A stretch of DNA of 64,000 nucleotides from Poronia punctata. Lineage: Eukaryota; Ascomycota; Sordariomycetes; Xylariales; Xylariaceae. The stretch covers positions 52,345 to 116,344 of the forward strand of contig MU401554.1 of NCBI GenBank assembly GCA_022579005.1. Reading direction: 5' to 3'. The notes under the pieces are model-generated. The model made no database searches. It saw only the letters and a list, made by a program, of their open reading frames with translations, and was not told the DNA's origin. This document shows positions 670-61,651 of this stretch, in pieces. The stretch's first letter is position 1; every line of letters starts with the position of its first letter. The position numbers and the translations under genes were made by a program.

Positions 670-1465
670 TTTGGCTCGCAGGCATTCGCATGCGCAGAGA
701 ATTGAAGATTTGTTTGAATGATATACTCAAATATTTCAGCTTAGAAACCCAAGTCGATCAAGATTGCTATTCAGTCTCCCAGTCAAGAAAATCTCAAGCC
801 GGCCAAAGTTTTAGTGGGGCCGGCGTTGGGGAAAACATCTAGTCTAACCTAAACCTAACCTAGAACCTGGTGGGCAGATGGCAGCCCTTATCTTTGGCAC
901 CTGCCTCGGTATGTATGCAACGTGCCCTGCACAAATATGTACTCGTAGGTTAGGTGTACTCGTATGCGCTTCTGTGCACGTTCTACTCCGAGTAAATTCT
1001 CGAAATATGAGAACATCAGACGACATAAATGTTGATAATAGAGTCATAACTGAGAAAGCGAACCGGCAGGATAACGTATACCTGGTTAGAGTGCCTAGTG
1101 CAGGCATAAAACATTCAATCAACCATCGTAGCCTTGAAAAAAAAGTACCCGTAATATTGGAGATGCTTGTCTTGGCCGCAAACCGAGGGCGCCACTGACA
1201 TGCAATAGTCATCCACTACTGATAAAAGTGATCCATGACGATTATTTAGCTAAATATGAGTCTTCTCTAGATACGTTCAAACTAACATGGCGATGCTTGT
1301 CTTTCCTAGATAATCTTCCTCTAACCCCTTTGTCATCTCTGTGTGTCCTCATTTTTTAGGACATACGCAGACAAAGGATGCTTGCTGTTATACTCGTACG
1401 TCTGGGAAACATACGGATAACCTCGGGTCAAGTTTTTAATATTGCTGCTTAGTAAGTAAAGGATT
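670..1465. other. Divergent intergenic/promoter region
   Basis: This spacer separates the 5' ends of the RRP7-like gene and the MFS transporter and presumably carries both promoters. Three copies of TACTCGTA occur at 940, 957 and 1391. Opposed 106- and 122-codon ORFs over the same bases show no recognisable protein and look like chance. No clear TATA box was seen. Confidence 0.6.
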
Positions 1466-3189
1466 ATGGTCAGGTTCAGGCATATCTCCCAGTTCCTCTC
1501 GGGAGCGAAGACGAAAGAGGCCAACAAACCGCCATATTTACTATCAGTCCGGTCTTCTACGGCGCTAATAACTATAACTGGTACGTCATGTCATTTCTGT
1601 CCAATTCTCGGTCGATATATTTCTCTGTTTCTATGTCGTCCTAGATACAATGCAACGACACTGCTGACGCGCCGGCGCTTTCCTAGTCAACTTGGCCATA
1701 TTCACTGACATCTTCTTTTACGCATTAATCGTCCCTGTGCTTCCATTCGCACTGCCAAGTCAGGTCGGGATCCCTCAAGACCAAGTCCAGTCATGGGTCT
1801 CTATCCTATTGGCAGTGTATAGCGCCTCATTATTTGTTGGTAGCCCTATTGCTGGCATCTATGCCGATCATACGTCGTCGAGACGATGGCCATTGCTCCT
1901 AGGTCTAGTGGCTCTTGCGGGCTCGACCTTTCTATTGGCCTTTGGCAATTCTGTCGGCCTTTACGTCCTAGGGAGGCTGCTGCAGGGAGTGAGCGCCGCC
2001 GTCGTCTGGAGTGTAGGATGTGCCCTTCTCGTTGATACCATGGGCGACTCGGTTGGCGTCGCCATGGGTTATCTGAATATTTCCATGAGCGTGGCCTTGC
2101 TTATTGCTCCTGTGGTCGGTGGGGTTGCCTACAACAATGCTGGGTATCTTGCGGTTTATTATGTTGCTTTCGGCATTGTGGGACTCGATATATTGCTACG
2201 TCTGATCATGATCGAAAAGAAGGTCGCTAGGCAATGGATCGCAACCCCAAGCCAATCTGAGGTCGCTTCCACCGAACAGACTGTAGAGAAGACGGTGTCT
2301 ACGAGCCCTGATGAAGAGACTCCAAGGCGTCCGAGCGACATGTCCGGTCGTCATCAGAGCGCTCCTGTGCAACTACGTGTAGCCGGCACAGAAGACACTA
2401 GAGCCCCTGGGCCTGACGACAATGGAGATGATGCTCCACGAGAGGCGAAAACTAAACACAGAGGACGGCGCATAATAGTGCTTCTAAAATCACCGAGGTT
2501 ACTTGCTGCTATGTACGGCATCGTCGTGGAATCGGGTATTCTGTAAGGATAGACATCCAGATCCGTCACACCAGAGGTAGGTAACAACTACTGACATCTT
2601 ATACAGAATGGGGTTTGACGCTGTCCTGGCCCTCTTCGTCAAGCAGTTATTTGGATGGAACTCCACAGCTGTAGCAGTCCTCCTTTTGGCCCTGTTCATT
2701 CCCGGGTTCACAGCACCGTTAGCAGGGTGGTTGTCGGACAAGTACGGAGCCAAGTGGCCATCGTTTGCTGGTTTCGTTGCCACTGTTCCGATATTGATAT
2801 GCATGCGGTTTGTCACGCAGAACACCATCCAGCACAAAGTCCTCCTTGCGGTTCTGCTTGCGTTGGCAGGTTTCACGCTCCCCTTTTCCATGACGCCCCT
2901 GATGGCCGAGATCAGCTATGTCATAGACGCCCAGGAAGCTGCCACCCCGGGAGTCTTTGGTAAGAACGGGGCTTACGGCCTGGGATACGGCCTGTTTAAC
3001 ATGGCCTTTGCGTTAGGCGGTATTATTGGGCCGATCTGGGCGGGGTATGTTGTTGCCTCGGCAGGTTGGGGTACACTGACGTGGAGTTTCGGGCTCTGGT
3101 CTGCTTCTGCGGCAGTGGTGGTCTTCTTCTGGGGGGTTAGCAAGCGGGCAACACCCGTACGCGAGGAATCCGATCTAGAAAATACCTGA
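1466..3189 (+). CDS. MFS transporter, DHA1/vesicular-amine-type
   Basis: Three exons at 1466-1580, 1687-2542 and 2607-3189 give 517 residues. Both introns are GT-AG and the joins restore VNLAIFTD and VESGILMGFD, which read straight through transmembrane helices. The protein has the twelve-helix MFS plan with a long charged, poorly conserved loop at about 215-305 between the two halves. The loop after helix 2 (GSPIAGIYADHTSSRR, about 90-105) matches MFS motif A of drug:H+ antiporters. Fungal members resemble vesicular amine transporters and are usually annotated as multidrug exporters. Substrate is unknown. The start is the first ATG giving a short cytoplasmic N-terminus with the usual basic KPPYLLSVRSS lead-in; a start further upstream is not excluded. 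Confidence 0.85.
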
Positions 3190-5253
3190 GGGGTGTTTTT
3201 GTGTATATATATCAACGCACTCTTCGACCGTGGGATTGACGTAGCCAGAAGCACGAGAATACCTAACTGAAACAAACATGTCTGATCATCTATAAGAGTC
3301 AGGATCATCAAACTGCCATGTCGTGGCCTATGACAGTGAAAGTGTCCGTCTAGATACCGGGTTCGGACATCCAACGCCGGATACAGCGCAAAGCTCAGAC
3401 GATTTCCTGTACTGCCATTAGAAATACTTACTGTCGAGGATCCTCTGGCGTACCAAGCAAAGCGACTTGAAACGCATAACTTTTGTTACATTTATTTTCT
3501 TGCCTTCTTTTCATATACATACCTACTCGAATCCGAAGCCGGTTCGCGTCGGCAGGATGGGGACGAGTCAGCCCACCATTAGAAGTCCATATGATACCAA
3601 ATCGAGGGCCGAGGATTTAGTGTACACACTACGAAATGTGATTCCTGATACATAAAAGTTTGGTCTCAACGACCGCACATGAGCATGAAGAGGACGCAAA
3701 TAGCAATGTACTTTTTTGAAAAAGCTTACTCTTTATGTTTATGAGCCAATGGAGAAAAAAGATATTGACTTTATACCGTGTACTCTTTCTCTCTTATGGT
3801 ATTGTTGTTCGCTGCAGGAGCTATTTCACGATGGAGAAGGCCTGTGCATATTTGGCGGGGGGCCAGTGGCAGCCAACTGAGACCACCCGCTCCTCAACCC
3901 ATCTCAACCGAAGATGATGGTAGGCAACATACACGACCGACAATTGCATTCCCTATTTACACATGCGATGTCGTAAAACCCGAAAAACTGATAAGGGAGA
4001 TGGCATGCACGTAGGTATGAGCCATTAACTTTTTAAAGCCACGAAGACGAAGTAGGCAGTCCGTTACAGTTGCGCCATGCCACTCTTGGAGTGGTGACGA
4101 CTTCGTGTTAAGCTTGGCAGTTTGGTCTCGGTTATAAATGGGGATGATTTTTTTCTTGGCTGTGCGCGTACCTGAGCTAGGTATGAGGACTTTGGCTCAC
4201 CGCCGTACGAGTAGCTAAAACTGAAACTGAGAGCCGAGACACAGGCTGAAATATTCCCCTCTTGTCCGCCACGAGACGGTGAGGTGAGAGGCGGCGTCGT
4301 GCACGTGATCGCTTACCAATGTAATTATTTACCTAGCATTCCTCTTAACTTTTGATCACGGGACCTAGTCTAGTCTACAAAAGTACAAGGCAAGTTTCAC
4401 GGCATACCTAATCGAGTTGAAGATATGTGTGGCGCCTATAATTTGGATATGTTTGGCATTTTCAGCACGAGGCGGTATGTTTCTTAGGTTCAAGGCGGGT
4501 AGAAATCTCCAAACCCCCCACGCTAGAAATGTACCTGTAGAGAACCGGTCCGATGCACTAGGTAACCTAACACGATGCAAGTAAGTTTGCTGCAAATACA
4601 TCCAATAAGATTTCTTTGGGCGTCTCTTTGCAATGCCCACTCCAAGCCCAGAGATGGGTCTTCCATCGGGTATGCTCGTACCATACGTCTTGGATTGAAG
4701 TATTTTCCTCTACTCGTAATACACGCTATAACCCCAGCTCTCTCACCTAGCCTTACGTGATCTATCTAGATGCGGGTTAGTCTAGTTGCCGGCGACGGGC
4801 AGGAACGGGTACCTTTCGTAGCACTAACAACCAAGACTTTTAAATAGTAAAAGCTCATTACGGTGATCATGAAAACCGGTTTTGATTGGAAGGATGGCCA
4901 GAGTGAAATTTGTTAGTGACATCTCAAGTGCCGGTCAGCCCCACCTAGATATCCACAAAGAATGAAACCATTGGAGGAAAGACGACACGACAGAGAGACC
5001 AGCTTGTTGTCCTGTCGCGCTCTTGTCCTCCGTTCATCCTAGCCCAAAAAAGAGAGAGAGGGTGAGCCGCTTTTCTGTCTGGAAAACATGCCGACTTGGC
5101 TGGAGATAGATGGTCTCGACAGTAACGAAAGCTACGAGTATATCTCTTGCAACATTTTTGCGTCGTGTAAAACTGCGCCCTTGTAATCGAATGTTCAACT
5201 TATTGCCGTAAAAATCGCCTAATCCTAGGTGGGGGTGTGAAGACGCAAAGGAA
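3190..5253. other. Gene-free spacer
   Basis: About 2 kb in which no ORF shows a recognisable domain, signal peptide or convincing splice structure. It holds TACTCGTA-class octamers at 4206, 4711 and 5133 and a short purine tract near 5050. It includes the presumed promoter of the membrane-protein gene at 5254. Confidence 0.6.
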
Positions 5254-6805: not shown

Positions 6806-9130
6806 GGGAGGAAATAGATCTCTTGGGCTCTTGATACAAAAGGTTCTAGACGCCGGCGTCGGGAGAAACCGTAATTAAACTGTCGCTATAGCGTACAGTA
6901 TGAAGAGAACTTAATGGTTGAAACAAACAAGTTAGCAAACCCAAGACTTCTACAACAGAAAAAACAAATGAAATGAACCAGGTGAAGATGAACAACTCTT
7001 AAAGCCGAACCACACGCAGGGTCTGTCTCTAGTCATTTCGACTAACAATGCACAAGTATTCGTAGTCTCATTGGCAAACATGCAACATGGTATTTAGCTT
7101 CCGGTAATTACCGCATAGAATTGAGGATTACCCGCTTACCTACTACATACGAGTACATAAGATAGTAAGAATACGCACGTAATATGTATGACAAGGATCA
7201 TTCGCGGCAGGAACAACAGGTAGATAGCCGGCCAACCACGTTTTTCCGAGCTGAAAATTAGGGCTTTTATTATACCAGGAGCGATGGAATGGAAGTGGCA
7301 GATCCGGGCTTGCTTGCTTGCATTTTGCATGCGTTTTTGCTGTAAGGACCAAAGCAGGTCATCTTGTCTAACCTTGTATCGGATGTACGTAAGACACATA
7401 ACCTACCTAACAGCAGACGCGTAAAAATAGTAGTTTACATAAGCGTTCTGAAATTCTGGTGGAAGAGAAAAACAAATCTGCTTTCGTACCAATTTGCTTC
7501 CCCTTATACGGAGAATTTATTTCTACCCCATGGGGGACCGTCACTCCAGATTCATTGCAACCTGGATAGGTATCATTTAAATAGGACGGGGGAGAATTTG
7601 TCCCGAAGAAATGGTTCAGCAAGACAAGGACATGTCCCAGATATAGAGGGGTTTTCAACGCAATCAGTTGGGGGATTGGCTCGTTTTCGGGAGAAATACG
7701 TGAAACAAGCCGAGTCTAGATACGAGTATTTAGGTTAAGGTATATTACACGTTAGACGAGAAAGATACTTGTAAGATGATATTGTTTCGTAAGCCATTAC
7801 AATGTACCTTTTACTGGAGTGGTGATATGGACAGTGGTACTATGGCAACCTGTTGAGCCGGGTTATCGGGCAACATAACCGGTTTTTGCTTATGTAGCAT
7901 AGGCAAGAATTTGGCCGAGGGGTATGATTTAGATATACGATGGACCCGAAGGATCGGGACCAGAACCAGTAAGATAACTTTGTTGGAAGGCCTGAAAAAA
8001 GCTAATCTAGGTAATCAGTCAGTCAGGCCCAAGTTCCAACTGGAAGGGGGCCGACAGTTAGGTTAGAAACAGGCAACCTACGTGTCAGCTCGGTGGTAAG
8101 ATTTGTTCGGCTAAGGCTCCGACTAGGTTAGACTAAGCCTGACCTAGTGTAGTTCTAAAGGGTAAGCAACGCGGACTGCGGCAAGACACCAAGACGCCTT
8201 AGTTATCCATTTTCAGACAAGGGCCGGCACAGATACACGGGTGGCGGACTGCCAACATTCGCTAAGAAGGCTTGTGTTGATGCTTGTTCAGACCACACGC
8301 ACACCATACCATATATATATCGGCAGAAAGAGTACGTTACGCTTGAAATGTTGCAACACTGATATGACTACACTAGGAACCTTGCGCTTTCCCAAGACTT
8401 TTACGCCGCAGAGTTGCTTATATTATATTACGGATGCAAAGCGGAGAAAAAGCACATCTCCGAGTTCTCGCTACGTGGATATTGTGTGTATGTGTGTGTG
8501 CGGAGAGTTACATCGCGGGTCGTGTCGGTGGATTGTTGAGCCCATGTTCCCCCAAGTTGTTGTCCCTTGTCTAGAGAGCCTTCTAGCACGCGATTTGTTC
8601 CTCCAATTAGGGTAATAAAAATGGGACAGGAACCGTTGGGTTGGACACTTCTTTCCCTTCCATGGGGGTGTTCTCTCCATGGGGGAAGGGGCAGGGGAGG
8701 GAGGAGGGGGGTTGTCGTTGTGGGTACCCGATACGACTTTAACCCCAGCTTCAAGGACCAAGTAACGGCTCAGGCGCGCCGGCTAAATAGCTCTACACGA
8801 TTAAGCGAAATCCTTCGAAAAGAGTTCATTTGTTCCCAAGGGTCTCAAGAATGGAGAAGTCCAATATCTGATTACCCGCTATCGGGCCGGCCCACGAGGT
8901 CGTTGCGATAGGTGATATATGAATGTTAACGGCGCCCTATCTCTTGCTGTTGCTGCTGACCGTCTCTGCCCTTTTGCTGCCTCTTGCCTATGTCTCTAGG
9001 GTGAGGTGAGATATTCTTTAGATAGAACTCGTCTCCGCTCAAGCTCAAGTACCTACTTGGGTCATAGGCAAATCTCTCTCTCTCTCTCTCTCTCTCATCG
9101 GTAAACGACTACAGAGAGCAGAAAGACAAG
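6806..9130. other. Gene-free spacer with sugar-transporter promoter
   Basis: No supportable gene was found. ORFs of 60-125 codons here lack recognisable features and several lie antisense to one another. Octamers of the TACGAGTA class lie at 7148 and 7721. The last 150 bases form the leader of the transporter at 9131 and include a long CT tract. Confidence 0.55.
9072..9099 (+). repeat. (TC)n pyrimidine tract in transporter leader
   Basis: An uninterrupted TC dinucleotide run ends about 30 bases before the ATG of the sugar transporter. Pyrimidine-rich tracts commonly lie near transcription starts in filamentous fungi, so this may be a core-promoter or leader element; it is also a microsatellite likely to vary in length. 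Confidence 0.8.
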
Positions 9131-11199: not shown

Positions 11200-12631
11200 A
11201 TTGGGTATCTAACTAGGAAAGGGGGCAAGTAAAAGTAGGTTAGTCAGTCATATAGTTTCTACTCGAACTTTGTTTGTTCGTTGCGGGATTATTGTATACA
11301 AGTAGATAGTCCCCGGAAAGAAAGAAAGAAAGGTTTATTGGGTAGCTTGTCTTTACCCCGCCCCCCCCCCCCCCTTTTCTGATTATGAATTGGTTTAATC
11401 CTTAAGGTGTTATTATGAAATTTCTGATCTGGTTGCGGGTTACGTACGTGCCTACATGTACTTACGGCCATAAGACCCCCAGGAATAATCGTGTCTGTCT
11501 AAGGGGCGTAGGTCCGGACTTTTGAAGCCTTGTTGTAGTAGCTTGCATTAGTACAGGGATTGATTGATTGATACGGTTTCTTTCTTTCTTTCTTTCCTTC
11601 TACCTCTGTGGAAATTACTTGTAGGTACCTATCCTGATCGGAAAATGTAGGCCCGAAGTTTTGTGTAACACTCGCAAAAAAAACTGGGCGGTCTGTCTGA
11701 TTCTCCTATCTTGCCTAAATTACCCGCCGGGAGAAACTAGGTAGACTAGCTGACTAACTGGCTGGGTACGAGAAAGGTAAGTCGAGTGAGTGGAAAACTA
11801 CACGTAACTTCCATCCTCCTCAACCCTCCATACTAGACTTACCATGTACACAACACGTATAGTAAGGTATCTATCTAGTCCTACCACATGAGGTTGGTAA
11901 TACCTAGGTAAGGTATATTACATTGGCGGTGAGGTGAGGTGATACGGTAACAAACAAAAAGGACAGGTGTGCAATACTCGTAGATGAGCGGCTATTTGTT
12001 TGTTTGTTGTTGTTATGTATTAACTGAATCGGCATAGAGAGAGGGGGTGGGGGAGAGAGAGAGAGATAGATAGATATCGCAACATTATTTATATTTTATC
12101 TTTTGAAGAGACATGGCTGAACACGACAGTAGACTTTCTTCTATTGGCAATCAGAAAGAGATTGGAAGGAAGTAAGTGTCGAAGCCAACGAGTATGGCAA
12201 ACACTTGTTAACCAGGGGTACCTTTACCACCCTTGACGCAATCACGACGTTGCGTAGGCTTGAGAATCAACTTGGTACCTATCAAACTTCCGATATACTA
12301 TACTCTCTCTATTGCAATGCCCGGCCTTGGGAGGTCATGGGCCTTGGGAGATCATATATACGTATATGCAAAGTAAACTCATGCCTGGCACCGTCTTCTT
12401 TACACAAGAGGTATCTTCAAATAACGTCGTAACACAAATATTATTAAGAATTATCTAACCGCCTTCTAATCCCATCGTGTTCTTTACCCTTGGAGAGACG
12501 CCTGTCTTGACCCAGACGTCCGTCCATGCATTATTTTCCTGCTATACTGGCTTCATCACGGCGTCTCCATTGTTTTTTATCCTCCACGTTAAGCCATGAA
12601 CCGAGCCATAAGAATGAACTTTTAGTTATAC
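11200..12631. other. Gene-free spacer with homopolymer and microsatellite tracts
   Basis: It contains a C run of 14 at 11361-11374, TTTC repeats near 11580-11600, GT/TGTT repeats near 11995 and a GAGA/GATA tract near 12040-12075, plus one TACTCGTA at 11975. No coding potential was recognised. It covers the 3' ends of two converging genes. Confidence 0.6.
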
Positions 12632-13881: not shown

Positions 13882-14569
13882 CGTGTCAGGAATCACTCTA
13901 TTCACTTCCAGTCTGAATTCAAGGTGGGCTTGTTACTAGTTGGGAATCGCGACCAATGGTATGTAATAATGGTTGGTTATTTTTGCAATTGGTAGAAACT
14001 TGGATTAAGTTGTAGATGGGCTTCTATACATTATTTCTTCACCGCGACTCCCCATTCATCCCATCTCTTGGTAATGACGACCTGAGAGTTCCCAAAGCCA
14101 CCTCCGTAATGAGCTCATCAATCTGATGTCATTGCAGGGTCCAGGTACCATTGCGTTTACTAGGCTAGCGCCAGGGCCAACAGCGCTAGTCCCCCGATGC
14201 TGCATCGTACCTGAAGGAGGTAGAAAATTACCTAGAATGTCCAGGTACATTTAAGTACTGCTTCTGCGTGGCAGGCTACAACGTTACTTGTAAATACATG
14301 CCAAGTAGGGGTCACACATGCTGTTACCTACGCGCAACGACTAGACTTAGACTACCTAGATGTACGTGTCTGTGTATTGTACAATCTGTTAGAAATACAA
14401 AAGAAGAAATTATTGTCTCTAAGGTACTCGTAGGTAGCTGCTTACATGACATGTCCTCTATTATCTGTTTGGAACAATTGTTAGTCCATAAATATCAGAG
14501 TAAACTGCACGTGTATCTACGAGATCTAATCGTCATAATCTTGATATACAAGGGTTGCAAAAAAGACAA
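13882..14569. other. Intergenic region upstream of the conserved fungal protein
   Basis: This holds the promoter of the minus-strand gene and the DNA downstream of the tRNA. One TACTCGTA lies at 14425. Nothing else was recognised. Confidence 0.5.
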
Positions 14570-15382: not shown

Positions 15383-17907
15383 CTATATAGTGAATAACGA
15401 ACCGAGGGACTCAACTACAGCAGCTATGACTGCTTGTAGATCCTCTGTAGGGTCTTCCGGCTCATTGTCATCCGTCGTCTGGTAAACCCACTCCGATTCC
15501 CACTCCAGCAATTCGCCCGCAAAGACCTTCTGGTTATACTTATCCGGCGGAGTAGCTACAAGGTACTCGACAAACTTCTGCCAACGTGGCAGATAGTATG
15601 TCGAGACCAGACCGCTCCAGGCACGTGACGCATAATCCGATATCTGTCCTGTCGGTCCCCAGAGCGTCACTTGGTTGCGGGCGTTGTACTCGAGGAAATC
15701 CGCAATGACGGCGTGATCTGGATCGGACGCGTTAGCAGTGGCCCGGGCCGCAGAGATCCAGGTTGATAGTCTAAAGTTCTCATTCGTCGCTAGGACCGAG
15801 TCGAGCGCGGATAGGAGTTTGTCAAATTTCTTCCCCTGCGCCTTGAGTGCACAATCCCGGAATTCCGAGTCTGCGGTTGAGGTATAGGTTGAGATGAGTT
15901 CCTGGTAGTATGGTATAAAGGCGTTGGCGAGTAGCTGGCGTGTAAAGTCAACGAGGTCGTACTGATAAGCCGGGTTCGAGAACAGCGTCTGCTCTTCTAG
16001 GCCTGCGCGGTATAGCCTGTCCCAGGCCGCGACCACGTCGGCGGGATCGTAGTTGATAAGGGTGGGGTGGTGGCCTGTGCGGTTCAACAACCCCTTCATG
16101 TTGGGTATGAGTTCGTAAATGCCCTTGGGCACGGCGTTGGCAACTAGGTTGGTGTTGTTAAAGACTGTCGGCCGTAGGATCTCCCACGCTTCGTAGAGGC
16201 CCTCGGGAAGATTGCCGTTGCTTGCACCGTACCGTGTGCTCACCCAATTTTGGAAGTAAGCCTCGGTGTCGATTGGAGTTTTGCTCCAAGCCTGGTCTAG
16301 AAGGAGGTCGTACATGATTTCATTACCTTCGAGACCTTCAGGGGTTAGACCGAAGCCCACAAGCGTTTCGCTTGCTTCGACCGCTTCTATCGCGTTGACG
16401 GTTATGTTCATGATCTGGCCATACTATGAAGAGACATGTGTGAGTACGGTAGAAAGCAATATGGGGGCTGCGGGAGGCTCTTACCAAGCCATAGTTCCCA
16501 CCATAGTCGTGTAACTGGCACCATATCCAAGGCTTGCCGTAGAATGAGCTAGTCCGCTGCCATTGCGGCTGGGACTCGGAGAACAGGTCAAGAATGAGCA
16601 TGTCGGAGTCGACGGTTACGCCACCCAAGAAGGCCTTGACGCGTGCATTCGTCCAAAAAGCCGAATTGGACGAGAACAACCAGCCTTGCATGAGCCAGAT
16701 GGCACTAGGATCTGCGGCTTTGAGAGATTTCCACGTGTTCTTACTGACGCTCTCGAGATAACCCAGATCGCCCGATGCTGGGTTGTTCTCGTTAAACTGG
16801 TCCAGCGTCCACAGATCCGTGACATTTCCGTAATACGCCTTCTGTTTCGACACGAAGCGGACCTGGAGTTCCTCAAACAGGGGGTCAAAGGGGTCAAGGA
16901 AAGTGGCGTTTGTATACCGGGTCGGGAAATCTTCCCAGGTCGAACCATTCGAGACGTTGGCGGTGGGGTAGACATGTGTGATAGCCCGAGGGGTGTATCC
17001 CGGGAACGCAGGAAGGATGGGCTTGATGCCGAGCTCTACCATGCGCTCTACAATCTTCAATTGCAGTGCGAACTGGTCCTCAATCCACGACTCCGGCATC
17101 GAGCCACCCCAGGAGCCCTGGATGTTGCCGAAGTGGTTCCAGGCAAGGAAGGCCGGGCCGCTTACAAAATCTTCGAGGTCAGCATCTGTGAAGCCCATTT
17201 CACGAAAGACTTCGATGTAGATCTTCTCAAACCCGATCCAGGCCAGAGCGATATTGATGCCCCGGATCGCCATCCAATCCAGATGCTCTTCCCATTCCTC
17301 CCAACTCCAGAAGGCAGATGTGTAAGAGGTTGTCACTATGAATACTTTAGTTAGCAAGATGAAGCTGTAAACACTGTCCAGCGGGTGATGTCAACTCACC
17401 TGTGTTTAGGTAGTACCGGTAAGGCACAATGCTCGAGCCCGTTAGTGGGGTCTTGAGCGAGGGTAGTTCACTAGGGGCATTGTGTAACTGGCTTCCAACA
17501 AACCACCAAATGTCGACATGAGCCTCATTTGACAAGTAGGCATGGAGACTAAAGTACGAGTAGTGCTGCAGTTAGCCACATCGTATATTTGCCTCGCCCG
17601 AAGGAATCAACGCATGTAACACCCACCCTGCAAATAGACCGCCCACCGTATTGCCTTGCACAAGGATGGCGCCGTCGCTCGTGCTTGAGACGTTATAGCT
17701 ATCGTTTACAAGCCCTGTGTCAACTTCGTCAAGATCGGCTTCGCTGTCCGATTGTAAATCTACGACCTCGAACTTGAATGATCCTGCATGCTGTGGCAGA
17801 CGGCGGTGAACAAAAGATTCAACACCAGCTGTGGATGCTGCGGTTCTTATGGCGACGACGCCGGCGACCACTGCGGTCCATCCGACGAGGATGTTGAATG
17901 TACGCAT
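15383..17907 (-). CDS. Secreted alpha-N-acetylglucosaminidase, GH89 (NAGLU family)
   Basis: Four exons read leftwards (17627-17907, 17400-17548, 16485-17335, 15383-16423) give 773 residues; introns are 78, 64 and 61 nt. The N-terminus is a signal peptide (hydrophobic ILVGWTAVVAGVV core), so the enzyme is secreted or vacuolar. NAGLU hallmarks are WSWEEWEEHLDWMAIRGIN, WNHFGNIQGSWGG, the acid/base motif DQFNENNP (Glu about 326), CQLHDYGGNYGLYGQI, and GFGLTPEGLEGNEIMYD with the nucleophile-region Glu about 456. The family removes terminal alpha-linked GlcNAc; in animals this acts on heparan sulfate, which fungi lack, so the natural substrate is open. In intron 1 the acceptor TTTAG was preferred over an earlier CAG because it keeps frame (GLFAGGLHAYL) and sits properly after a CTAAC branch site. 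Confidence 0.9.
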
Positions 17908-20900
17908 GGCGGGCGACCTTCTTGGGCTCCGAGTCCCAGCACGTTAGGTCTACGTCGACCTAGCAGAATGTTGCTGGAAAACAACAAGAAAATTTACGTG
18001 TGGAAGTGAGTGACGTCGCGGAGAGACCATCCTGTAGGCCCCGTTTACAATGTATCCTACCTACTTTATTTTACCAAGTACGAGTAATACTTGCTTGGCA
18101 ATGCCTTGCCCTATCAAGACAATCTCGACTAAACATTGTCGTGATTTCCGACACTGCAAGAAAAACAGGGGTTAAGGTTGGTGGGTAAAAGTGTGTGGAT
18201 CAATCATTTCCCCCAATACCTACCTTACCTAAAAGAGGATAAATTATTCCTTCTGATTTGATGTAACGTCACTGACCCAATATACCATAACTAAATATAT
18301 CTGATAAAGCGATCACGATTCCCGTAAAAAAGATAGCTTATACATATTTCTATAAGCGCTAGCAGCCACCCTATTTTGCTTTTCTTTCTTACAAGTACCT
18401 AGTTCTTAGTATTACCAAACAGCACCGACGACAGACTACCCTTCCATTGTCCAAGGCCTTCTATTCGTAAATAGTATTCCTACACCCGAAGCACGTATAT
18501 TGTCTATTATCAAACACTTGTACCTACTTGCCAACATAGGACCTTCGTACCTAATTCCTTTCACTACGATCCTGACGGCCGGAACGATTTGTTTGTTGGC
18601 CCAAAGTGGTCGCATATAAGGTAAGATATAGCTTGGCTCATGACTAGAAAGAACGGAGCCCGACTCAGATAGCGACTTAAATGGTAGGGGATATGCCGAA
18701 CAAGGTCCTGTCAATTTTCTAGCACCAAGAAAGGCGCATGAGCAGAGACTATATCATTAGCCAAGGATGTATCGCCACAACTGCAGACGGGGGAGTGCAT
18801 ATGTCACTCCTGAGATCAGTCAGTACTTGCCGAAACACTCACACATGAGTGATCATTCGGTGCTTTCTAGTTGATACAGCTATGAAACCATATTCTAGGC
18901 GAGCCCGCGATCCCGTATCGACGGTAACCAGCAAAAAATCAGCTGACCATCCAGTCCTTGTAGTAAATACCGGACGCTGCAGCTACGGCAGTAAAGGAAG
19001 GGGAGGTAGATAGGTCGATTCCATCCAGGGCAGCCAACCGGCGAACACTGGCGAGACAGCAGATAGTAAGCAGTAATAGCAGGAGTGTCTAGACCCAAAA
19101 TGAAAATTCACGCAGCGACTTGCATGCTCATGGCGAGTTTATATCGATTCCGACTCGGTTGACCTGTGATTGTCGCAAGATGTGTTTTGGGTTCGTAGCC
19201 CGCACAGCTCAGGGACAGAACCACGGCTCACCCACGCATTTCAATACCATAATCAGGCTGGCGGTAATAAAGAATGCGAATCAATTGAGATAGGCGACAC
19301 TGGGAAAGGTTTGAAAAGGGGCAAAAAAGTGCTCAGTCACAATGTACGTGAGATATACCGCACGATTCTGGTAGGAAAAGAGTGACAGAGGACATGGCTG
19401 TCATCAACGGCCAACTCTAGGAGAAGGAAAGAATACTCAGCTATAATCTTGCCATAGACCAGCTCCCGTAACCTAACAATTAGAACCTATCAATGTCTTC
19501 ATTTGCGTATTCGTACAGAAGCGAAGACTAAGTTGCCCAACCCTCCTTGACTGTAATAATAAGGGAACTTTTGCCCCTTAATCAAGCGCCCGTCGCGCCA
19601 GTTAACCCTCATCAAAGTGGAATAAAATAACTGAGCCCACCGGAAAGATGTAGACCGTTTAATAATACCTGCGATAGCGCATTTTTGAGGCAGCATGGCG
19701 ACATTGGACGGGGGGAGGAAATCTCCGTACATGCGAAGAGAGACCGGAGGGTATTGTGTAACGGTTGACATGGCAATAGGCCACGACAGTGACCACGGTT
19801 CGAGGGGAGGTGTAAACCAATTCCCGAGACCATTACCGAACAGTACCTAAGCAACATCAGAAACACCCAAGCTCATCTATCACAAATTGTCCAGTCAGGC
19901 GATAACTAACAAGGGTAGAGTAGAGTATCAATATTCAACCCCTCCTGAGCTGACTGCATCGTAACAGCTGGCATCGTAAGATGGTACTAACCATCGATTC
20001 CTCGGAGAGGCTGAAAAGAAGAGATAGCGTCTCGATCTACCACCTCAACATATGTTTAGGGTCTCGGAGTCGGGGCATATCAATGCTTGTTTGCCGGCAG
20101 AAAGCAAGCCTTCCGCTCAGAATGGTTAGGTTAGGGCCCTAGAAAAGCAGATCGAAAAAGGGATTGGCAGCTTTGTTACGTGATGAAAAAGCCCTTTCTG
20201 ATTCGCATAGAACCATGCGACCTGACCTGGGGTAGTACTCTAATGCACTCCATGGTTTTACCTAGTCTATTGGCCCCAAGTGTCGAGACCGAAATCACAA
20301 TCCCCTCTTTTTGTGTCATTCCAAGGCGACATGGTGGAATTGGGAAGCGGTGGAGTGACTGGAGTCCGCTGTAGTCTAGAAATACCCCAGGTTCGCCACA
20401 ATATCAGACCAAGATTGAAAAACCAAGACTATATTACCTACTAGTTTAGCATGTGTGGTTCAACGTAGAACAACTTTAAAGGTGGTTTCATACCTACCTA
20501 GGTATAGGACAGCAAACCTTAATAGGTCGACAGTGGCCAACAGGGAAGGGTGCCTTCGAGCTCCCACGACGTAATGCGGATTTGTTCAACTAATTGACGT
20601 ATGGGCAACGATGAGTCCAGCCCCAGCCTTGTCTGATCATCACGGCTGTCATAGCGAGTGATGACACTATTCGGGGAGTCTAGTTTTGCCGCCGCCTAGG
20701 AAAATGATATAACACTTATCGGGTGTTACGACATTTTCCACGGACCCGAAGAGGGTCATCGACCCGGCGGACCCGGAATCCTCTCTTCCATCGTCGCTCG
20801 TTCGCCCTTCATCCTTGGCCGGCTTCAGTCAACACTGTTGGTCGATCCAGGTTAAAGAAGAATACTTGCAGACGATATGCCGGGAAATTAAGCGTTGCTA

Positions 20901-25140: not shown

Positions 25141-26262
25141 GCAAACACAAACCAGCAGAGGAGGATGTACCTATAAGAACTGCAATGTTCCGGGTATATA
25201 TGATCAAGCATACCTATGAACTAGTTAGATTCTTGTTTTGCGATAGATAACCCGACTGCTTCTTCTTCTTCTTCTTCGTCTTCTTCTCTAGTCTTACTTA
25301 CTTACTTTACTTTACACACTAACCTTAACGTACGTATTCTCCCGAAAATGTATGATTGTATTGTGCGGAAGTTAGGTATGTACCTATAGCTCTTCCCCAA
25401 ATTTTGAAATCCACCTACTTACCTCCTTATTAAATAAGGGGAATAAGACGATGTCCATGTCCTACAATAAGAGGTAGGAGGGTTTCCATCTCTTTATATG
25501 AAAAAGAAGAAGAGCAAGAAGAAACCCGGCAAGACAGAATGAATGAATGGGCCATGATAATCATAACATCCAAGTTGAGTTTGAGTTAGACGAGCTAGAA
25601 AGCCCCTAAGATGCTGGGATATTTATACTCGTATGTATGAGCTTCTAGGTTCTCCCCGTAGAGTCAAATAATGATAGTTTTGCAGACTTGAGTAAATAGG
25701 TACTAAGAGGAAAGATGAAGTTGCAAGCAAATGTGTATTTTTCCTGTTCCTGCGTCGGGGCGTCCTAAACGCCATGTTATTTATATTCCTCTGATCAAGT
25801 TCACATATGGAAATATGTGTTCTCTATGTGTTTATGAATGGTAAACGTGGTTTGTGCTTCTGTTAACTGTCATCAGAAGTCATCCTCATGTTTCGTCCAA
25901 TGAAGTCCGAGGTCACACAGCATTGGGATTTCATTATAAGAAACGAACTGCGACTGTGCGCTTTTTTCTTCGAGTTAAAAAGATGAGCTTATCCGTGAAA
26001 TCAAAGCTTTAGGTATGTAGTCTTCAACCCGCACCCTTACTCAACGACACGTGTGAGTGTAGCGTTTTTTTATACCAAAATCGCTCCCAACGCCATGCTC
26101 CGCCTGATAAACCACAGTTGCAACACCGGCAAACATGTTTCTTTTTGTCATCCCAGAAATAACCAAGGAGCAACCCAAAGAACAAGGGAAAAGAGTAAAC
26201 CGAGGGGGCAAGATATGGAAGGCGGGTGGGTGCCTGTTACCTTGCCTTCCCACTTGCCCACT

Positions 26263-41502: not shown

Positions 41503-41564
41503 GTAAGTGACTACTGCTATGGCATCATATAAAAATCCCGCTCATGATATTAACTTTGCTGCAG
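41503..41564 (+). other. Predicted intron in 5' leader
   Basis: A GTAAGT donor at 41503 and a GCTGCAG acceptor ending at 41564, with an ATTAAC branch-like site about 12 bases before the acceptor, form a 62-nt intron lying 29 bases before the ATG at 41594. An upstream ATG at 41519 would be removed by this splice. The 340 bases before it are rich in C/T with few ATGs, consistent with a long leader. Confidence 0.6.
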
Positions 41565-41593
41565 GTCAAAGCATAAGGCACCTCATTTTCAAC

Positions 41594-49303: not shown

Positions 49304-51808
49304 CGCCCTTCCGGTGCGGGAAAACGTACTAATATCAAGATCTGACCGAATTACGTTGGCTCAGTTCTATCTGAACGAATCTAGAAAGCCATGATAACCT
49401 CATCCCGTTAGCATAGGCGAGCGTAGACCGCCTATTCGTTCTCAAATCACCATATTTCTCGGCGGTTACATATTAAATAACATCCCTCGAACCCCCTTGT
49501 CAGGTGTATTTGATAATTCGCGATCCTTTGGAGACGTCAAGGAGAAAACGGATTAAGCAGGCCGGGGTCCTTTTTACACTACTATGGGTCTACATGCTGT
49601 ATGTAGCGCCTGTTTTAGATGCCGATGATACTCTACTTTTGTTTGACGAGAGATGCGGTGGTCCGGGATTCCCTTATTGGTCGGCCTTGCAGCATGGTAT
49701 GTTTACATTCAGAGTAAGCAAACCCAGTTGTGCAGATCGGGGGGGTGGGTTTGCCGTCAAGGCATCTACGTTGCATTCAGGAACATCTCCAAATTCTAAC
49801 CTACTCCGGAAGAGGAAAAAAAAGAGGAGGGGCAGTTATCCTGAAGAAGTTCGCATTGGGAGTCCAATTCGTCGACTCGGCTAGAAAGTCATAATTGCAA
49901 AGCCTCGCAATTGATGATAAATAATCATTAAATACATGGGTCATTTGGCGTGAAGCTAAAGTAGAGGGAAAATATCAACCAACTCTTTCAGATAGGTACA
50001 TAGCTTGCACTTAGAGGGCCTAGCTGTCGATCTAGGAGAATTACAAATCTCCTTGGCCCCCCTGCCTTCAAGTTGACAGCATGGGTTCCCACCAGCTCTA
50101 AATATATCATATCTGCGGTGATCTACGAGTACCTACACTGCATGTTATTTATCGACAGCAATGAAACCCATGATACCTAGCCCGGCTCTGGTTACATTGA
50201 CATATTACAAAGACGGCGCCAAGAGACGCTATGATTGGACAATGAAATGACAAATCGCCAATCTTGGGACCAACAGAATCTGCAATATCTATCGATCTGA
50301 AGCAGATTTGGATGAAACCCCTTGCCGGGAAGATAACCCAGGATAAGTTGCCTGCCCCTTCAGGGGGGCATACCAAACCAACACACAGTTCCCTCCGAAT
50401 GATGCTGCAACAGCGTACGCACGTACACATCCGTGTAGATAGTTTGACATCGAAGTAAATGCTAGACTACTTGTTATAAACAAGGCAAACTTGTATCCCG
50501 GGCAAGCGCAGGAAGTAAACTTCAAATATCAAGCTAACCTAGGCACTAGACTACTGAGAAGATAGACGCGCAAAAGATGCCAGTATTTGGGTAGCCGGAG
50601 AATTACATAAACGTGTCCAAACTAACTATCTTGGGCAAGGGACGTTCAAAATAGCTCAAGTTTACAAATATAACCAAGATTACCTAATGTATAGTAAACG
50701 CAGCGGGGCTACTTTACGTACAACATGTACGTCGTCGATGCCTTTGCAGCGCTGTCAAAAAATTACGTCTACCTAGAACAGTCTGTTAAGCGAAACGAGC
50801 AATTGGGCCAAGAAACTGCATCTCAGTTTTAATTCAAATTTCTTGCATATTGACTGCGAGTCTCCCTTTAGCCTTAGCTCGCCCCTAATGTTTCCATCAC
50901 CGTTGACGTACGAGTAGAAAGCGCCATGCAGGGCCGCCCCCAATGATTTGATTACCCCACCATCAATCTCAGACGATACTTACCTAGTCGAAAGCAGCCC
51001 CGCGCCCTGCGCCCCGCGCGTCGAGAAGGGTCAAGGGTATGTAATAAAAGGTAGGTAGGTAGGTAGGAGCAGACGAATGAAAGGGACGATTGGTCGATCG
51101 ATTCTTTTAACAATCCCAATTGCCCGGCATGTTCCTGTCAAGTGGGAACAGGGGCATACTAAACCTGACAGTTTTACAGTAAACGCGGGAAATATGGTGG
51201 CGACGCTGACTGGACAGCCCACCGCCTTCCCTGGCGTCGCTTTTTTTCGCATAGTAACTCCCTAGGAAAGCCGCATAGTAGGGTAGGTACTTTGCTGACG
51301 TTTCTTTGTGGGATTTTCCTCTGCATGTCAGACGCCTTCCCGTCGTACTAAGTCATCTAGGACCCCTCCCAATGGGCAAGACCCCTCCACCAAGCCCAAG
51401 CTTCAAGATAGCTCCTGCCTTGCCGTAGTTGTTGCTTTCGTCCTTGATACCGTAGATCTAGAATTGCCTTGGGGGCAAGACGAGGCGAGAGAGAGAGAGC
51501 GCCCTACCCTCTTTTCCCGGCAATATTCGCCCGTTTTCCGTGGGGACAGATAGATGCCTGCCCGAAATGCAATCCGATGGCATATCTCTAATGCGTAGTG
51601 CGCATTAGATTCACGTGGCCGGGCCCATATTCTGAAGGACCCCATCCCTCCTCTCCCACTTACTATTATTTAAGAAGTCGAAAGACCTCTTTCATTATAC
51701 CTCTTGTCTCTCCTCTTCCACACACTTCATACCAACACCAGAAACTCGAACCAAACGAATAAACCACACACCTTTACCAAACTTTCACCCTTCACACCAA
51801 TCTTCAAA
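49304..51808. other. Gene-poor spacer
   Basis: No supported gene. A 126-codon ORF at 49504-49884 has one hydrophobic segment (VLFTLLWVYMLYVAPVL) but no start ATG (it begins GTG), and looks like chance. Octamers of the TACGAGTA class lie at 50125 and 50909; TAGG tandem units occur at 51050-51066. The end is the promoter of the GFA gene. Confidence 0.5.
51667..51673 (+). promoter_or_regulatory. TATA-like element upstream of GFA gene
   Basis: TATTTAA lies 136 bases before the ATG and is followed by a strongly C/T- and CA-rich leader without an upstream ATG, typical of a well-expressed fungal gene. Confidence 0.5.
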
Positions 51809-54468: not shown

Positions 54469-54586
54469 AGGAGGTTTAGAACTATAAAAGTGATTAATTT
54501 GCCGATGTCCTCAAGCGTACAAAGAGGGGTTCTTGGGAAAATCACAGACGGCGACTACCGTCTTTGAAAATAAAAGCTCATCCACC

Positions 54587-54896: not shown

Positions 54897-54927
54897 TGCT
54901 GGCTATCTGCGGCAGACTAGAGTTTAG

Positions 54928-56282
54928 AAGGCTTCTCCCCTGTTGAAGGGGGTCTATGGAAGGGACGATGGGTAAGCCTAGTGATGTTTTTGACATTCAG
55001 GGGTCAAAGGGAGGATCATATGTGGATTCATACCCATCCGGCACGTGCTGTCTCCGAATAACGCGCTCTTTTGTAAATATAACGTTGCGATTTCATTACT
55101 TGTAAATGCTTCTTTCTTACACTTCAAGCCCAGTCGATTCATTGTGACAGGTATAATACGATCAATATTGTGTAGATTGTACCTATATTTGGTTCCGCGG
55201 GGCTCTGAATAACCATGATTCTTTATGTGAGCTTGGGGTTCTGCGTGATATCCCATGCATTTCTTGCCCACGCCAGATGGTAAAGATGATTATCTAACAT
55301 ATCTACTTGCAAACACACGTCTTGCAGACGTACGCAGAACTATTGCATCATGTACTCCCTTTCCAATACTGACTAATGCTGAGATAGGTGCAAGGGTTGG
55401 CACTTCTCTCTTGTGAGTTTTAAACAAACAAGGTTGGGATTTCTTAGTATAACCCAAGTGATAAAATGTTGTCGGATCAGAGCTATCAAAGCACGTGGAT
55501 AGAACAGTGGCCGCAAAAGAATGAGGGAAGAAAAGATGAGTCGTCCTGCCCACAAAGTTTACGAGTAGGCGTTCTTACCCGTCCGCCCCCTAAAACTCAT
55601 CGTTCCGATTGGATGTGGCTAACGGCTGGTGGACCGTGGAGGGGCCAATATGGACTTTGATTGGTGTGAAAGCCCTCATGTACAGTGCGTGGTACTGTTC
55701 TTGTGGGGTGTGCTGCGAGCAAAATGGAACACCATGTTTTCGACGAGTAAGTTGTAATACATACTCGTAGGTAGGCAATCTAGATGTGTCGTTAGAGAAA
55801 ATCTTACTCTTACATCTTTCAAAACCTGATCGATGTAGGTAGGCACGTAACTTGGTAAATGACGCCCTTCCTTCCCTCTTCGCTAACCTAATGGTCTCTA
55901 ATATTATAACCACAACATTCATTAATCGGCAGGTGCGTCGTATGTTTTACCCGTGTCGGTCCCGTGTCGGTCCCGTCATTCCTTCAAGGTCATCGGTGGG
56001 CTAGATGGAAGAGAAAAGAATATGAGAACTAAGAGATCATTTAAACTTGACACATTATTCTCTACGCATAAGGTCGGTACATGTATCTTGCAAGTACGAG
56101 TACAATCTACCTACGCCAATCACTCTCGTATTCTTACCTCGGAAAAATACGAAGAACGTTCCTTCTACGATACGATGACCGGATTACGTAGGTATTCAGA
56201 GGTAATTGCTGGGTACTACCTAGACTAGGCGCCATAGAGACGTCATATACAGGATCTTGCCTAGTAACAATGAAGCGACAGG
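54928..56282. other. Gene-free spacer
   Basis: No supported gene; ORFs of 60-110 codons lack features. Three TACTCGTA-class octamers lie at 55560, 55762 and 56095, the densest cluster in the right half of the window. Confidence 0.5.
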
Positions 56283-57999: not shown

Positions 58000-59339
58000 A
58001 TGGTCAAAATAGTTGTGGCTGGTGGTTCTGGCCGTAAGTCAAAGACTACCCCTTGCTTGATGGCGATTTTGAGATTGACTAACCTTCTGCAGAGGTTGCT
58101 CGAGAAGTCATCGATGCGCTTATAGCCGCCAAGAAACACGACATTACCGTATTCAGCAGGAGTGTGAGTCTACCCCATATCCCCGGCGTTCGCTTGAACA
58201 TGTAGGTTAGTTCAGTTAGCATGGTGTTCACATTGTACTTCACCTTAGCCTCTGCCGATCATAGCGATCACAGCCTCCGAGGTCGAGTGGAAAGCCGTCG
58301 ACTATAATGATAAGGCAACTCTTGTCGAGGCACTCCAGGGGACTCATACCGTCCTATCCTTTATTCAGCCACTTGCGGATCAGGGGCAGAAGACGCAGAA
58401 GAATCTCATCGATGCTGCGATTAGCGCCGGTGTGAAACGGTTTGCGCCGAGCGAATACGGCAGGTAATAATTCCGGTTAGATTCCCGCGGCGATCGATCC
58501 ATCTGTCAACTAACAAGACAAATGCGAAAACATAAAGTCGAAAGACAGACGATATGGCTTGGTGGAAAGGCAAAGAAGAAGTGAGAGAATATCTGAGGAA
58601 AGTGAACGAGAATCAACAAGTACGACTGCGGCCACGTCACCTGCCCTTTGGAAGACGGCATGGACTAACTAAGAAAACCCCCCATACAGGTGCTCGAGTA
58701 TACCTTGTTCCAACCGGGTCTATTCTTGGACTATCTTGCATTTCCCCACAAGACGGCGAAATATCTGGAGCCATTGCAAACCGTCTTCAACTTCAAGGAC
58801 AGACGAGCGATCGTAGTCGACGGATACGAGGATGCCGTCATGACGCTAACTCCGGTGGCAGATGCCGCAGAAGCTATTGCCCGAGCCATTGACCACGACG
58901 GCAGATGGCCCGTCGTTGGGGGCATCGTCGGCAACAAGGTCACGGTGTCTCAACTACTAGAGATTGGCGCCAAGGTCCGGGGTACGTTGCCAAGACCCAA
59001 TGGCTGCACATTTTTACCTTTACGTACATGTACTCGTACAGGCCCTATACTGACTTATGCCGGCTTTTACACGTAGGAGCCTGTTTTGAGGTGGAAAAGG
59101 TGCGGATCCAAGACCTCGAGGCGGGAGAGCTCAAGACATCTTGGGGTTTGGAGGCCGTTCACCAGGCAGTGCCCAAAGATCAAGCTCAAGCTCTTCTCAA
59201 GGCGGTTTGTATCGGTACGTTGTTGAGCACTTGCAAAGGCGCATGGGAAACGACGGACGAAATCAACCAAATACTGCCGGACTATAATTTCGCCCCTATT
59301 ACGGAGTTTCTGTCCAAGGCTTGGCGCGACAAGGCTTGA
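58000..59339 (+). CDS. NmrA-like/isoflavone-reductase-like NAD(P)-binding protein
   Basis: Six exons (58000-58033, 58093-58163, 58249-58463, 58538-58619, 58690-58981, 59077-59339) give 318 residues. The first exon encodes the Rossmann strand MVKIVVAGGSG; later signatures are ITVFSRS, VEWKAVDYND, TVLSFIQPL, KNLIDAAISAGVKRFAPSEYG, VLEYTLFQPGLFLDYL and the C-terminal substrate domain with TPVADAAEAIARAI. This is the atypical short-chain dehydrogenase class containing NmrA, isoflavone reductase and phenylcoumaran benzylic ether reductase. The catalytic Lys of true reductases is not clearly aligned here, so reductase activity is uncertain. The exon 3 acceptor was chosen as CTTAG at 58248 for phase. 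Introns are 59-95 nt. Confidence 0.85.
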
Positions 59340-59912: not shown

Positions 59913-60758
59913 ATGAAGTCTTTCGTGACAACCGCCGCCGTCGCGCTCGCCTCGGTGCAAGGCATCCTCGCGGAGAACTCGGCCGGGTGCGGCAAGGATC
60001 CGACCATCTCGAACCAGCGCTACCAGATGACCGTCAACGGCAAGACGCGCGAGTACATCATGAAGATCCCGGATGACTACGACAGCAGCCACCCGTACCG
60101 ACTGGTCTTCACGTGGCATCAGCTAGGCGGCAGCGCCCAGAAGATCGTAGACGGCGAGAACCCCCAGGCCGGCGGTGCGCTGCCGTACTACGGTTTGGAG
60201 GCGATTTCGGAGGGCAGCGCCATCTTTGTCGTCCCCGATGGACTAAACGCCGGCTGGGCCAACGAGGGCGGCGAGGACCTGACCTTCTTCGACCAAATGT
60301 TGGAGGAGGTGGAGAACGCGCTCTGCATCGACACCAACCTGCGGTTCTCGACGGGCTTCAGTTATGGTGGTGGCATGTCATATGCGCTGGCCTGTGACCG
60401 GTCCGACCAGATCCGGGCCGTCGCCGTCATCTCGGGCGCCGAGCTGAGTGGCTGCCAAGGTGGTAGCTCGCCGGTGGCGTACTACGGCCAACACGGAACC
60501 TCGGACTCGGTCCTCAACGTCGATCTCGGCCGTCAACTGCGCGATCGCTTCGTCACCAACAACGGCTGCCAGGCCGTGTCCGAGCCCCAGCCCAATGGCG
60601 GCAACTCGGTCAAGACGGAATACCAGGGCTGCCAGGAGGGTTACCCCGTCACTTGGGTCATTCACGACGGCGACCACAACCCGTCCCAGGTCGACCAAGG
60701 CCAGAGCACTCCTTTTGCTCCCCAGAACAGCTGGGATTTCTTCACTCAGTTCACTTAA
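59913..60758 (+). CDS. Secreted feruloyl esterase (CE1 family, FaeB-like)
   Basis: A single exon encodes 281 residues, beginning with a signal peptide (FVTTAAVALASVQGILA). The catalytic triad is complete: nucleophile in STGFSYGGG (Ser about 150), acid in HGTSDS (Asp about 198), base in HDGDHNPSQ (His about 255). Several cysteines (SAGCGK, ENALCID, LACDR, LSGCQGG, NGCQA, YQGCQEG) suggest disulfides as in fungal CE1 esterases. The family releases ferulic or p-coumaric acid from arabinose side chains of plant cell walls. There is no cellulose-binding module. The start ATG has an AAAATGA context. The gene faces the GH93 gene tail-to-tail across about 890 bases. Confidence 0.9.
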   Translation: MKSFVTTAAVALASVQGILAENSAGCGKDPTISNQRYQMTVNGKTREYIMKIPDDYDSSHPYRLVFTWHQLGGSAQKIVDGENPQAGGALPYYGLEAISEGSAIFVVPDGLNAGWANEGGEDLTFFDQMLEEVENALCIDTNLRFSTGFSYGGGMSYALACDRSDQIRAVAVISGAELSGCQGGSSPVAYYGQHGTSDSVLNVDLGRQLRDRFVTNNGCQAVSEPQPNGGNSVKTEYQGCQEGYPVTWVIHDGDHNPSQVDQGQSTPFAPQNSWDFFTQFT

Positions 60759-61651
60759 AAGAACATTGGGGTTGTTTGGGGTACTGGGTTTGCGTTGGCT
60801 TCTTGGTTTTATTCGTACCGGTCGGTGATTCTAGTATTGTTACTCGAATCTCTTTTAACCCATCAGGGGATAGATAACCAGAGACTGGGCAGAACGAGGA
60901 CGAATACTCTTTCCATATGAAGTTAAAAATAAAAACACTACTACTTTGAAGTTGGGATTAGTGTACGAGTCCTGAAGCGTGCCTAAGTACTTGTATGAAA
61001 TCTTACTTAACCGCCCAAGGTGATGTGAATATTCTCAAAACTCAGTACTATTCAGGGCCCGCCGTTAAAGTATAACCACATTAGAATTGGTATGCATTGA
61101 CATAAGCCGATGTACGAACAAATCCAAAGACGTTGTTGGTACATACTTGAGTAATCCAGATGCTACCGATTGTGCACAGTAGAAACATTATAGACAACCT
61201 GTATTATCCCTTATAGACTACCTAAAGAAAGAACATGAGCAAATGAACATACAATGCGGGTTTGATTTTCTAATCCCCCGTTATTAATCCAACGGCATAG
61301 ACGAGCAGACGACTTCCAGTGTTTCTGTGTCCTATAATGCACCGTCAGGGGATATAATACCTTTGGCTCCAGACAGAAATACATACGACCTAAAACCAAG
61401 TCGAACGACCAAAACAAAACAAAAATCTCGGGCTACAAGTTTGTCATATCACTTTACCTTCTTCTTTCCCCCCTATTTAAACCGGATACCCATCCCCATC
61501 CCTATCCACAGACACAACAACAACGAATCCCAAGGATTTTCTGCATTGAATTTGCATTGTCCCTAGATAAGTAGGTAGTTGTACTAAATATTTATAGGCT
61601 AACCCAGATACTTTACCTACGAGTAGATAGAGACCAGAAACATGTTCCCCT
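60759..61651. other. Tail-to-tail intergenic region
   Basis: It holds the 3' flanks of the esterase and GH93 genes, with an AATAAAA-like signal near 60928 and one TACGAGTA at 61618. No gene recognised. Confidence 0.55.

Follow-up and report, generated by a model that had tools for sequence, protein, structure and literature searches.

A dyad-symmetric octamer over-represented in the non-coding DNA of Poronia punctata, a putative protein-binding site

The octamer TACTCGTA, which reads TACGAGTA on the opposite strand, is strongly over-represented in the genome of the ascomycete Poronia punctata. It was noticed in a stretch of 64,000 nucleotides (contig MU401554.1 of assembly GCA_022579005.1, forward-strand positions 52,345 to 116,344), which is referred to as the window. 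The octamer is probably the conserved recognition site of a protein with a two-fold symmetric target. This reading is drawn from the exact arms of the dyad, its tolerant 2-base centre, the symmetric flanks, the use of either orientation, the non-coding location and the absence of decayed relics. With this octamer, a sister of an over-represented word of Aspergillus fumigatus is now found in a distant fungal class; its dyad is quantified, its permitted variants are defined, and relics of it are not seen.

Abundance and location of the octamer

Exactly 29 copies are present in the window, 14 as TACTCGTA and 15 as TACGAGTA. All 29 had already been counted by eye in the preliminary description, where 28 of the starts were exact and one was off by a single position (50124, not 50125). 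The random expectation of about two copies given there is borne out by Markov models of orders 1, 2 and 3, which predict 1.43, 1.90 and 2.16 copies. At higher orders, the expectation rises to 3.3 (order 4), 7.0 (order 5) and 24 (order 6), the last of these because such a model largely re-uses the octamer itself. Among the 1,680 words of identical composition, the octamer ranks first in the window with 29 copies, followed by a runner-up with 12 and a mean of 1.7; the comparison with permuted octamers, which had been proposed as a check, thus reveals no equal enrichment and leaves the claim standing. By Markov-1 score, the sole 8-mers above the octamer in the window are AG/GA simple repeats.

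A larger sample was assembled from the window and 20 stretches of 10 kb (L009-L028) taken from 17 contigs, 264 kb in total. Four of these 20 stretches are AT-rich, with a guanine-cytosine (GC) fraction of 0.21-0.33, and the other 224 kb are termed the normal-GC sample. In the 264 kb, four words outrank the octamer by Markov-1 score, all of them homopolymers or T/A runs. The whole assembly (45.05 Mb, 573 contigs), the one genome from which all counts come, contains 5,545 + 5,455 = 11,000 copies, roughly one per 4 kb, as against 559 + 578 = 1,137 copies of the reversed word. The count over the whole assembly, also suggested beforehand as a check, is thus about 10-fold above its control, and the over-representation is confirmed as real.

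The location statistics are all based on the coding calls of a self-trained hidden Markov model (HMM), not on annotated genes. In the normal-GC sample, none of the 69 copies falls in predicted coding sequence (75.5 kb), and all 69 lie in non-coding DNA (148.5 kb). Permuted words occur in coding sequence at about 0.021 per kb, which corresponds to just 1.6 expected copies of the octamer; the enrichment is, therefore, absent from coding sequence, but active avoidance is not shown. The octamer had been described as confined to non-coding DNA, and this holds for the predicted positions of the copies, though not in the sense of avoidance. Two stretches picked for their density of copies have no predicted coding at all, namely L030 (C2:103001-113000, GC 0.46) with 16 copies and L033 (C4:130001-140000, GC 0.42) with 10.

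Among the gaps between predicted genes, 6 copies lie in the 25.6 kb of convergent gaps (0.23 per kb), and 42 lie in the 72.2 kb of tandem and divergent gaps taken together (0.58 per kb; one-sided binomial p = 0.018). Classable gaps account for 48 of the 69 copies, the other 21 lying outside them. A weak positional signal thus favours promoters over terminators, and since the gene models are coarse and the comparison was made after looking, this bias is suggestive. Less than 1 kb upstream of genes, 16 copies are on the same strand as the gene and 20 on the opposite one, i.e. with no preference. An element acting at the RNA level was rejected on account of this lack of strand bias relative to genes.

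The 500-bp blocks with GC below 0.30, 27.5 kb in all, are devoid of the octamer; about 13 copies would be expected there at the non-coding rate and about 0.1 from base composition alone. The AT-rich stretches of the sample (L016, L023, L024 and L026) are probably repeats degraded by repeat-induced point mutation (RIP). RIP was rejected as the main cause of the pattern; the octamer contains neither CpA nor TpG, which would spare it from direct destruction by RIP, and the blocks with GC below 0.30 are nonetheless without it.

Dyad symmetry, permitted centres and neighbouring words

The flanks were analysed in 134 non-redundant copies. The stretches L030-L034, which were chosen for octamer density, were used in this analysis only, as were the small loci L029 and L035-L038. 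A weak consensus emerges, A-Y-V-TACTCGTA-B-R-T, which is symmetric under reverse complementation. Between the base preferences on one side (-1 to -8) and the complemented ones on the other (+1 to +8), the correlation is r = 0.76, a value reached in one of 2,000 permutations, and the uncomplemented mirror of the flanks gives r = -0.04. At position -1, there are C 49, G 43, A 32 and T 10, and at the mirrored first position, after complementing, C 48, G 48, A 22 and T 16. T or C occupies position -2 in 90 of the 134 copies; A is found at -3 in 67, and T in the matching place on the other side in 64. In the genome, the extended word ANNTACTCGTANNT occurs 2,033 times, which is 18.5% of the 11,000 octamer copies; the corresponding share is 5.7% (65 of 1,137) for the reversed word and 7.5% for 8-mers generally in the sample.

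The flank signal is slight beyond about 5 bp on either side, and the octamer is, therefore, not a fragment of a longer repeat. The earlier remark that the flanks differ, and that the copies are not those of one dispersed transposon, is in this way upheld by 134 distinct copies. A dispersed transposon or a miniature inverted-repeat transposable element was rejected likewise, as these copies share little past that distance. It is extremely unlikely that the octamer stems from a mobile element, e.g. a Starship, as its target site or terminal repeat, even though the analogous Aspergillus word TACGGAGTAG is a predicted target of the Starship Tardis in the available text of PMC12153272. Target-site use would not generate 11,000 copies, and the distinct flanks of the 134 copies also speak against it (element boundaries were not searched for). 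A microsatellite was dismissed too, since TACTCGTACTCGTA tandems number 0 in the 264-kb sample and a few overlapping pairs are found elsewhere in the genome.

In the 148 kb of non-coding DNA, four of the ten distinct words of the form TAC-N2-GTA are clearly enriched, and they are described by TAC[AT][CT]GTA. The TC centre has 69 copies against 3.6 expected at order 1 and 5.2 at order 3, the AC centre 35 (3.6 and 4.7), the TT centre 25 (5.5 and 9.0) and the AT centre 18 (2.5 and 4.1). The remaining six centres have 0-8 copies against 1.2-4.9 expected, the top ratio among them being that of the CG centre, with 5 against 1.8. Genome-wide, TACACGTA occurs 6,480 times against 1,186 for its control, and TACTTGTA 4,428 times against 1,264. 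The idea that CpG deamination accounts for all copies of TACTTGTA was discarded, as the product expected on the opposite strand, TACTCATA, is much rarer, with 10 sites against 25 in the 264 kb, and is near background.

A change in any of the six outer letters brings the count to about background. The 22 other one-mismatch neighbours amount to 134 copies in the 264-kb sample, and 136.5, 138.9 and 137.9 are expected at orders 1, 2 and 3 when the octamer itself is masked. Their genome-wide mean is 1,191, and that of the neighbours of the control word is 1,369. By our estimate, a steady neutral gain and decay of copies would leave about as many one-step relics as there are copies, and of 78 such relics, about 70 would belong to these 22 words. 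Decayed relics are not seen among them, which fits constraint on the copies, albeit indirectly.

The putative binding site, its rivals and candidate proteins

Three interpretations had been put forward in the preliminary description, namely a binding site for an architectural or silencing protein, a recognition site linked to DNA methylation or breakage, and a short-repeat seed spread by mutation; as a set, they are supported in part. The protein-binding site is favoured by the dyad in the flanks, the restricted centres, the lack of an orientation preference and the want of decayed neighbours. The octamer would then be the core of a binding site of roughly the form A-Y-V-TAC-[T/a][C/t]-GTA-B-R-T. 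An abundant sequence-specific DNA-binding protein would contact the two TAC half-sites around the 2-bp centre, in either orientation, and some 11,000 such sites would be spread over promoters and other non-coding DNA. Purifying selection would preserve the exact word, and near-misses would remain at background. The protein may act as a transcription factor or as a general regulatory factor; a dyad and a defined motif with tolerated positions, as are expected of a transcription-factor site, are indeed found.

Close pairs of copies were also considered. With a spacer of 0-30 bp, direct pairs number 226 genome-wide, convergent pairs 135 and divergent pairs 108, near the 2:1:1 of no orientation preference, and by a hand calculation, an even genomic spread would give about 83 such pairs in all. 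Spacers were tallied in the 200 pairs listed (100 direct, 50 convergent and 50 divergent). Among these, 26 are separated by exactly 2 bp, which places their centres 10 bp apart (13 direct, 6 convergent and 7 divergent). When these 26 are excluded, even spacers number 104 and odd spacers 70 by hand count. Pairs with the 2-bp spacer often form TACCTA/TAGGTA, itself an over-represented word, and thus cooperation on the same helical face and an overlap of words look alike. TACCTA/TAGGTA is a second over-represented word, with 394 copies against 135 expected in the 264 kb; in the normal-GC sample, 351 of its 358 copies are outside predicted coding, and it has no upstream preference. The co-occurrence of the octamer with 15 word sets (including the octamer, its variants, TACCTA, CCAAT, TATAAA, CACGTG, GATAA and TGACTCA) gave nothing convincing. 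The largest departures, TACCTA within 150 bp (40 of 69 against 31.6 +/- 3.9) and TGACTCA within 50 bp (2 against 0.3 +/- 0.6), are weak after 30 tests.

Several observations weigh against a binding site. For a transcription-factor site, the octamer is uncommonly sharp and frequent, and its promoter bias is modest, post hoc and measured on coarse HMM gene models with 48 of the 69 copies classed. A at position -3 and the mirrored T co-occur in 27 copies, where 32.0 are expected, i.e. without excess, and the excess of the TT centre over order 3 is below 3-fold. In the unbiased sample, there is no excess of TACTTGTA or TACATGTA near octamer copies, and there is a mild clustering, 8 of the 69 copies having a neighbour within 50 bp against 4.0 +/- 1.9 at random. 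In addition, the excess of 2-bp spacers and a part of the flank signal may be traceable to the separate TACCTA word.

Under one rival explanation, a neutral mutational or copying process, such as slippage, templated repair or micro-insertion, seeds a functionless octamer in non-coding DNA. The confinement of the octamer to such DNA in the sample would suit this process, as would the TA-ended words that it has in common with the locally repetitive TACCTA/TAGGTA family and the preference of close pairs for the 2-bp spacer (26 of the 200 listed). The 22 one-mismatch neighbours without excess speak against it; a scarcity of relics would also follow from a very recent burst, but symmetric flanks would not, and neither these nor the restricted centres are expected from seeding. 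The octamer is missing from the 27.5 kb of most AT-rich blocks, where the non-coding rate calls for about 13 copies, and the 264-kb sample has no TACTCGTACTCGTA tandems. The mutational seed, which was among the earlier interpretations, is thus disfavoured by the lack of excess among the one-mismatch neighbours and by the AT-rich blocks without copies, and we consider it unlikely.

A signal of DNA mechanics or chromosome biology, e.g. for nucleosome phasing, a replication or recombination site, or the site of a modification enzyme, is quite improbable. The TA steps at the ends of the motif and in its flanks, the 10-bp spacing of centres among close pairs and the frequency of about one copy per 4 kb are in keeping with it. 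Such signals are degenerate, yet any change in the six outer letters of the octamer takes it to about background, and the modest promoter bias also speaks against a role of this kind.

For the putative protein-binding site, the closest known relative is in A. fumigatus. According to the available text of PMC7667024, chromatin immunoprecipitation sequencing of SomA gives an 11-bp motif, GTACTCCGTAC, in 119 of 476 peaks, and an electrophoretic mobility shift assay with a mutant probe agrees. The site of this Flo8/Som1-type protein is also treated in the available part of PMC10900910. Like it, the octamer has a TC-containing centre between arms of TAC and GTA and is non-coding, and it shows a suggestive bias towards promoters. 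Unlike it, the octamer has a centre of 2 bp (TC) instead of the 3-bp TCC that separates TAC from GTA in Aspergillus. The SomA site also carries an outward G on the left and C on the right; the arms are present here, but position -1 prefers C or G and not G specifically (n = 134). The Aspergillus word TACTCCGTA/TACGGAGTA, which in A. fumigatus is at once the SomA motif, an extreme k-mer of the genome and a predicted Starship target, is not enriched in P. punctata, where it has 138 copies in the genome against 237 of its reversed control, and it has 0 copies in the 148 kb of non-coding DNA. The octamer is, therefore, a different word of the same kind, which lacks a defining feature of that exact site family but may work like it.

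In a separate study of A. fumigatus, the word CTACGGAGTA lies above the 99.99th percentile of k-mers in strain Af293 and overlaps the predicted C6 zinc-cluster motif UN0291.2 of JASPAR; in the available text of PMC12153272, it is taken as a possible transcription-factor site, and its function is left open. As with CTACGGAGTA, the octamer is a short non-repetitive word far above its genome-wide expectation. It differs in its letters and in its host, a member of the Sordariomycetes and not of the Eurotiomycetes, and the Starship link belongs to the Aspergillus prediction only, so far as the available part of that source goes.

As to the protein, the genome of P. punctata encodes a LisH/LUFS exon (locus L035, G000:C56:63572). 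In one search against Pfam, its LisH score of 22.9 bits exceeded the cut-off; in another, a score of 19.7 bits fell short of the cut-off of 21.6. It also has weak PDB matches to SSBP2/Ssdp chains (E 0.0045-0.017). An N-terminal LUFS domain is a part of Flo8/Som1 in the available text of PMC4631450. The exon could, hypothetically, be of the Flo8/SomA type, and SomA might be the protein that binds the octamer; given the weak PDB matches and the borderline LisH score, both orthology and binding are put forward as hypotheses. No Som1 site in Verticillium was found in the available part of PMC9910802. An APSES search of the genome gave three KilA-N matches. The leading named candidate for the reader of the octamer, and a rather doubtful one, is a LUFS protein of the Flo8/SomA type or else a factor of the C6 zinc-cluster class. 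Such a protein would be predicted to bind TACTCGTA and TACACGTA only, and not TACCCGTA or TACTCCGTA.

More broadly, and tentatively, the octamer could mark a factor, general regulatory or architectural, that has gone unrecognised in filamentous ascomycetes and has about one site per gene. The word would differ between lineages by one base in its centre (TAC-TC-GTA here and TAC-TCC-GTA in Aspergillus), and a change in the spacing preference of the protein would have gone along with the joint re-tuning of thousands of sites. The octamer thus raises the direct question of which protein reads it, and whether thousands of sites shifted their spacing together. To our knowledge, the general regulatory factors of these fungi are poorly known, and a site for one of them, if that is what the octamer is, would give a handle on promoter architecture in a large fungal group.

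Comparable words exist outside these fungi. The HIP1 octamer of cyanobacteria, the function of which has long been debated, is a perfect palindrome that is also common in coding DNA. As with HIP1, one exact octamer is hugely over-represented across the genome; unlike HIP1, the word described here is a pseudo-palindrome with 0 of 69 sampled copies in predicted coding sequence. The sites of the general regulatory factors of yeast (Reb1, Abf1 and Rap1) are sharp and abundant promoter words, to which the octamer is unrelated in sequence. We know of no factor for TACTCGTA. Among the literature matches listed, in their titles and abstract openings, no report of TACTCGTA/TACGAGTA as a fungal motif was found, which is not a claim of its absence from print. 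Among the papers listed for the string TACCTAGGTA is one on a Trichoderma long non-coding RNA (PMC6948969).

Copies in the window and neighbouring genes

All the copies in the window are exact matches to TACTCGTA. Two form a pair on the forward strand (940..947 and 957..964), and two form an inverted pair, 28736..28743 on the forward and 28754..28761 on the reverse strand; the former of these precedes, by about 0.13 kb, a gene at 28880 that has Mur-ligase matches below threshold. The other forward-strand copies, apart from one discussed below, are at 1391..1398, 4711..4718, 11975..11982, 14425..14432, 21359..21366, 25626..25633, 33858..33865, 38972..38979, 41034..41041 and 55762..55769. On the reverse strand, copies are found at 4206..4213, 5133..5140, 7148..7155, 7721..7728, 21414..21421, 35377..35384, 37278..37285, 50124..50131, 50909..50916, 55560..55567, 56095..56102 and 61618..61625.

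The two copies that had been assigned to introns keep that assignment, with splice sites that are approximate. The reverse-strand copy at 17555..17562 is intronic in the GH89 (NAGLU) gene, as judged from exons with Pfam domains; it sits between the NAGLU_N exon (17638-17895) and the open reading frame with the NAGLU domain of the same gene. This gene, for an alpha-N-acetylglucosaminidase, spans 15383-17896 on the reverse strand and has NAGLU_N, NAGLU and NAGLU_C domains. A further reverse-strand copy, at 18079..18086, is about 0.2 kb upstream of its predicted first exon. The forward-strand copy at 59031..59038 is probably intronic in the NmrA-like gene, judging from the reading frames, as it follows coding pieces of the NmrA-like kind, with an NmrA match at 58264-58461. 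The pieces 58753-58980 and 59085-59336 have no Pfam match, and on our reading of the frames, the latter probably continues the gene past this copy.

Between 32.6 and 43.6 kb of the window, about 11 kb are without HMM-predicted coding sequence, and they contain one open frame of 184 amino acids and five octamer copies. This region lies upstream of a gene at 43565-45070 on the forward strand for a protein with a Cdt1 C-terminal domain. The best named relatives of this protein place the fungus in the Xylariaceae; the first is from Xylariaceae sp. AK1471 (74% identity), and many others are from Xylaria, with Nemania and Hypoxylon species also represented.

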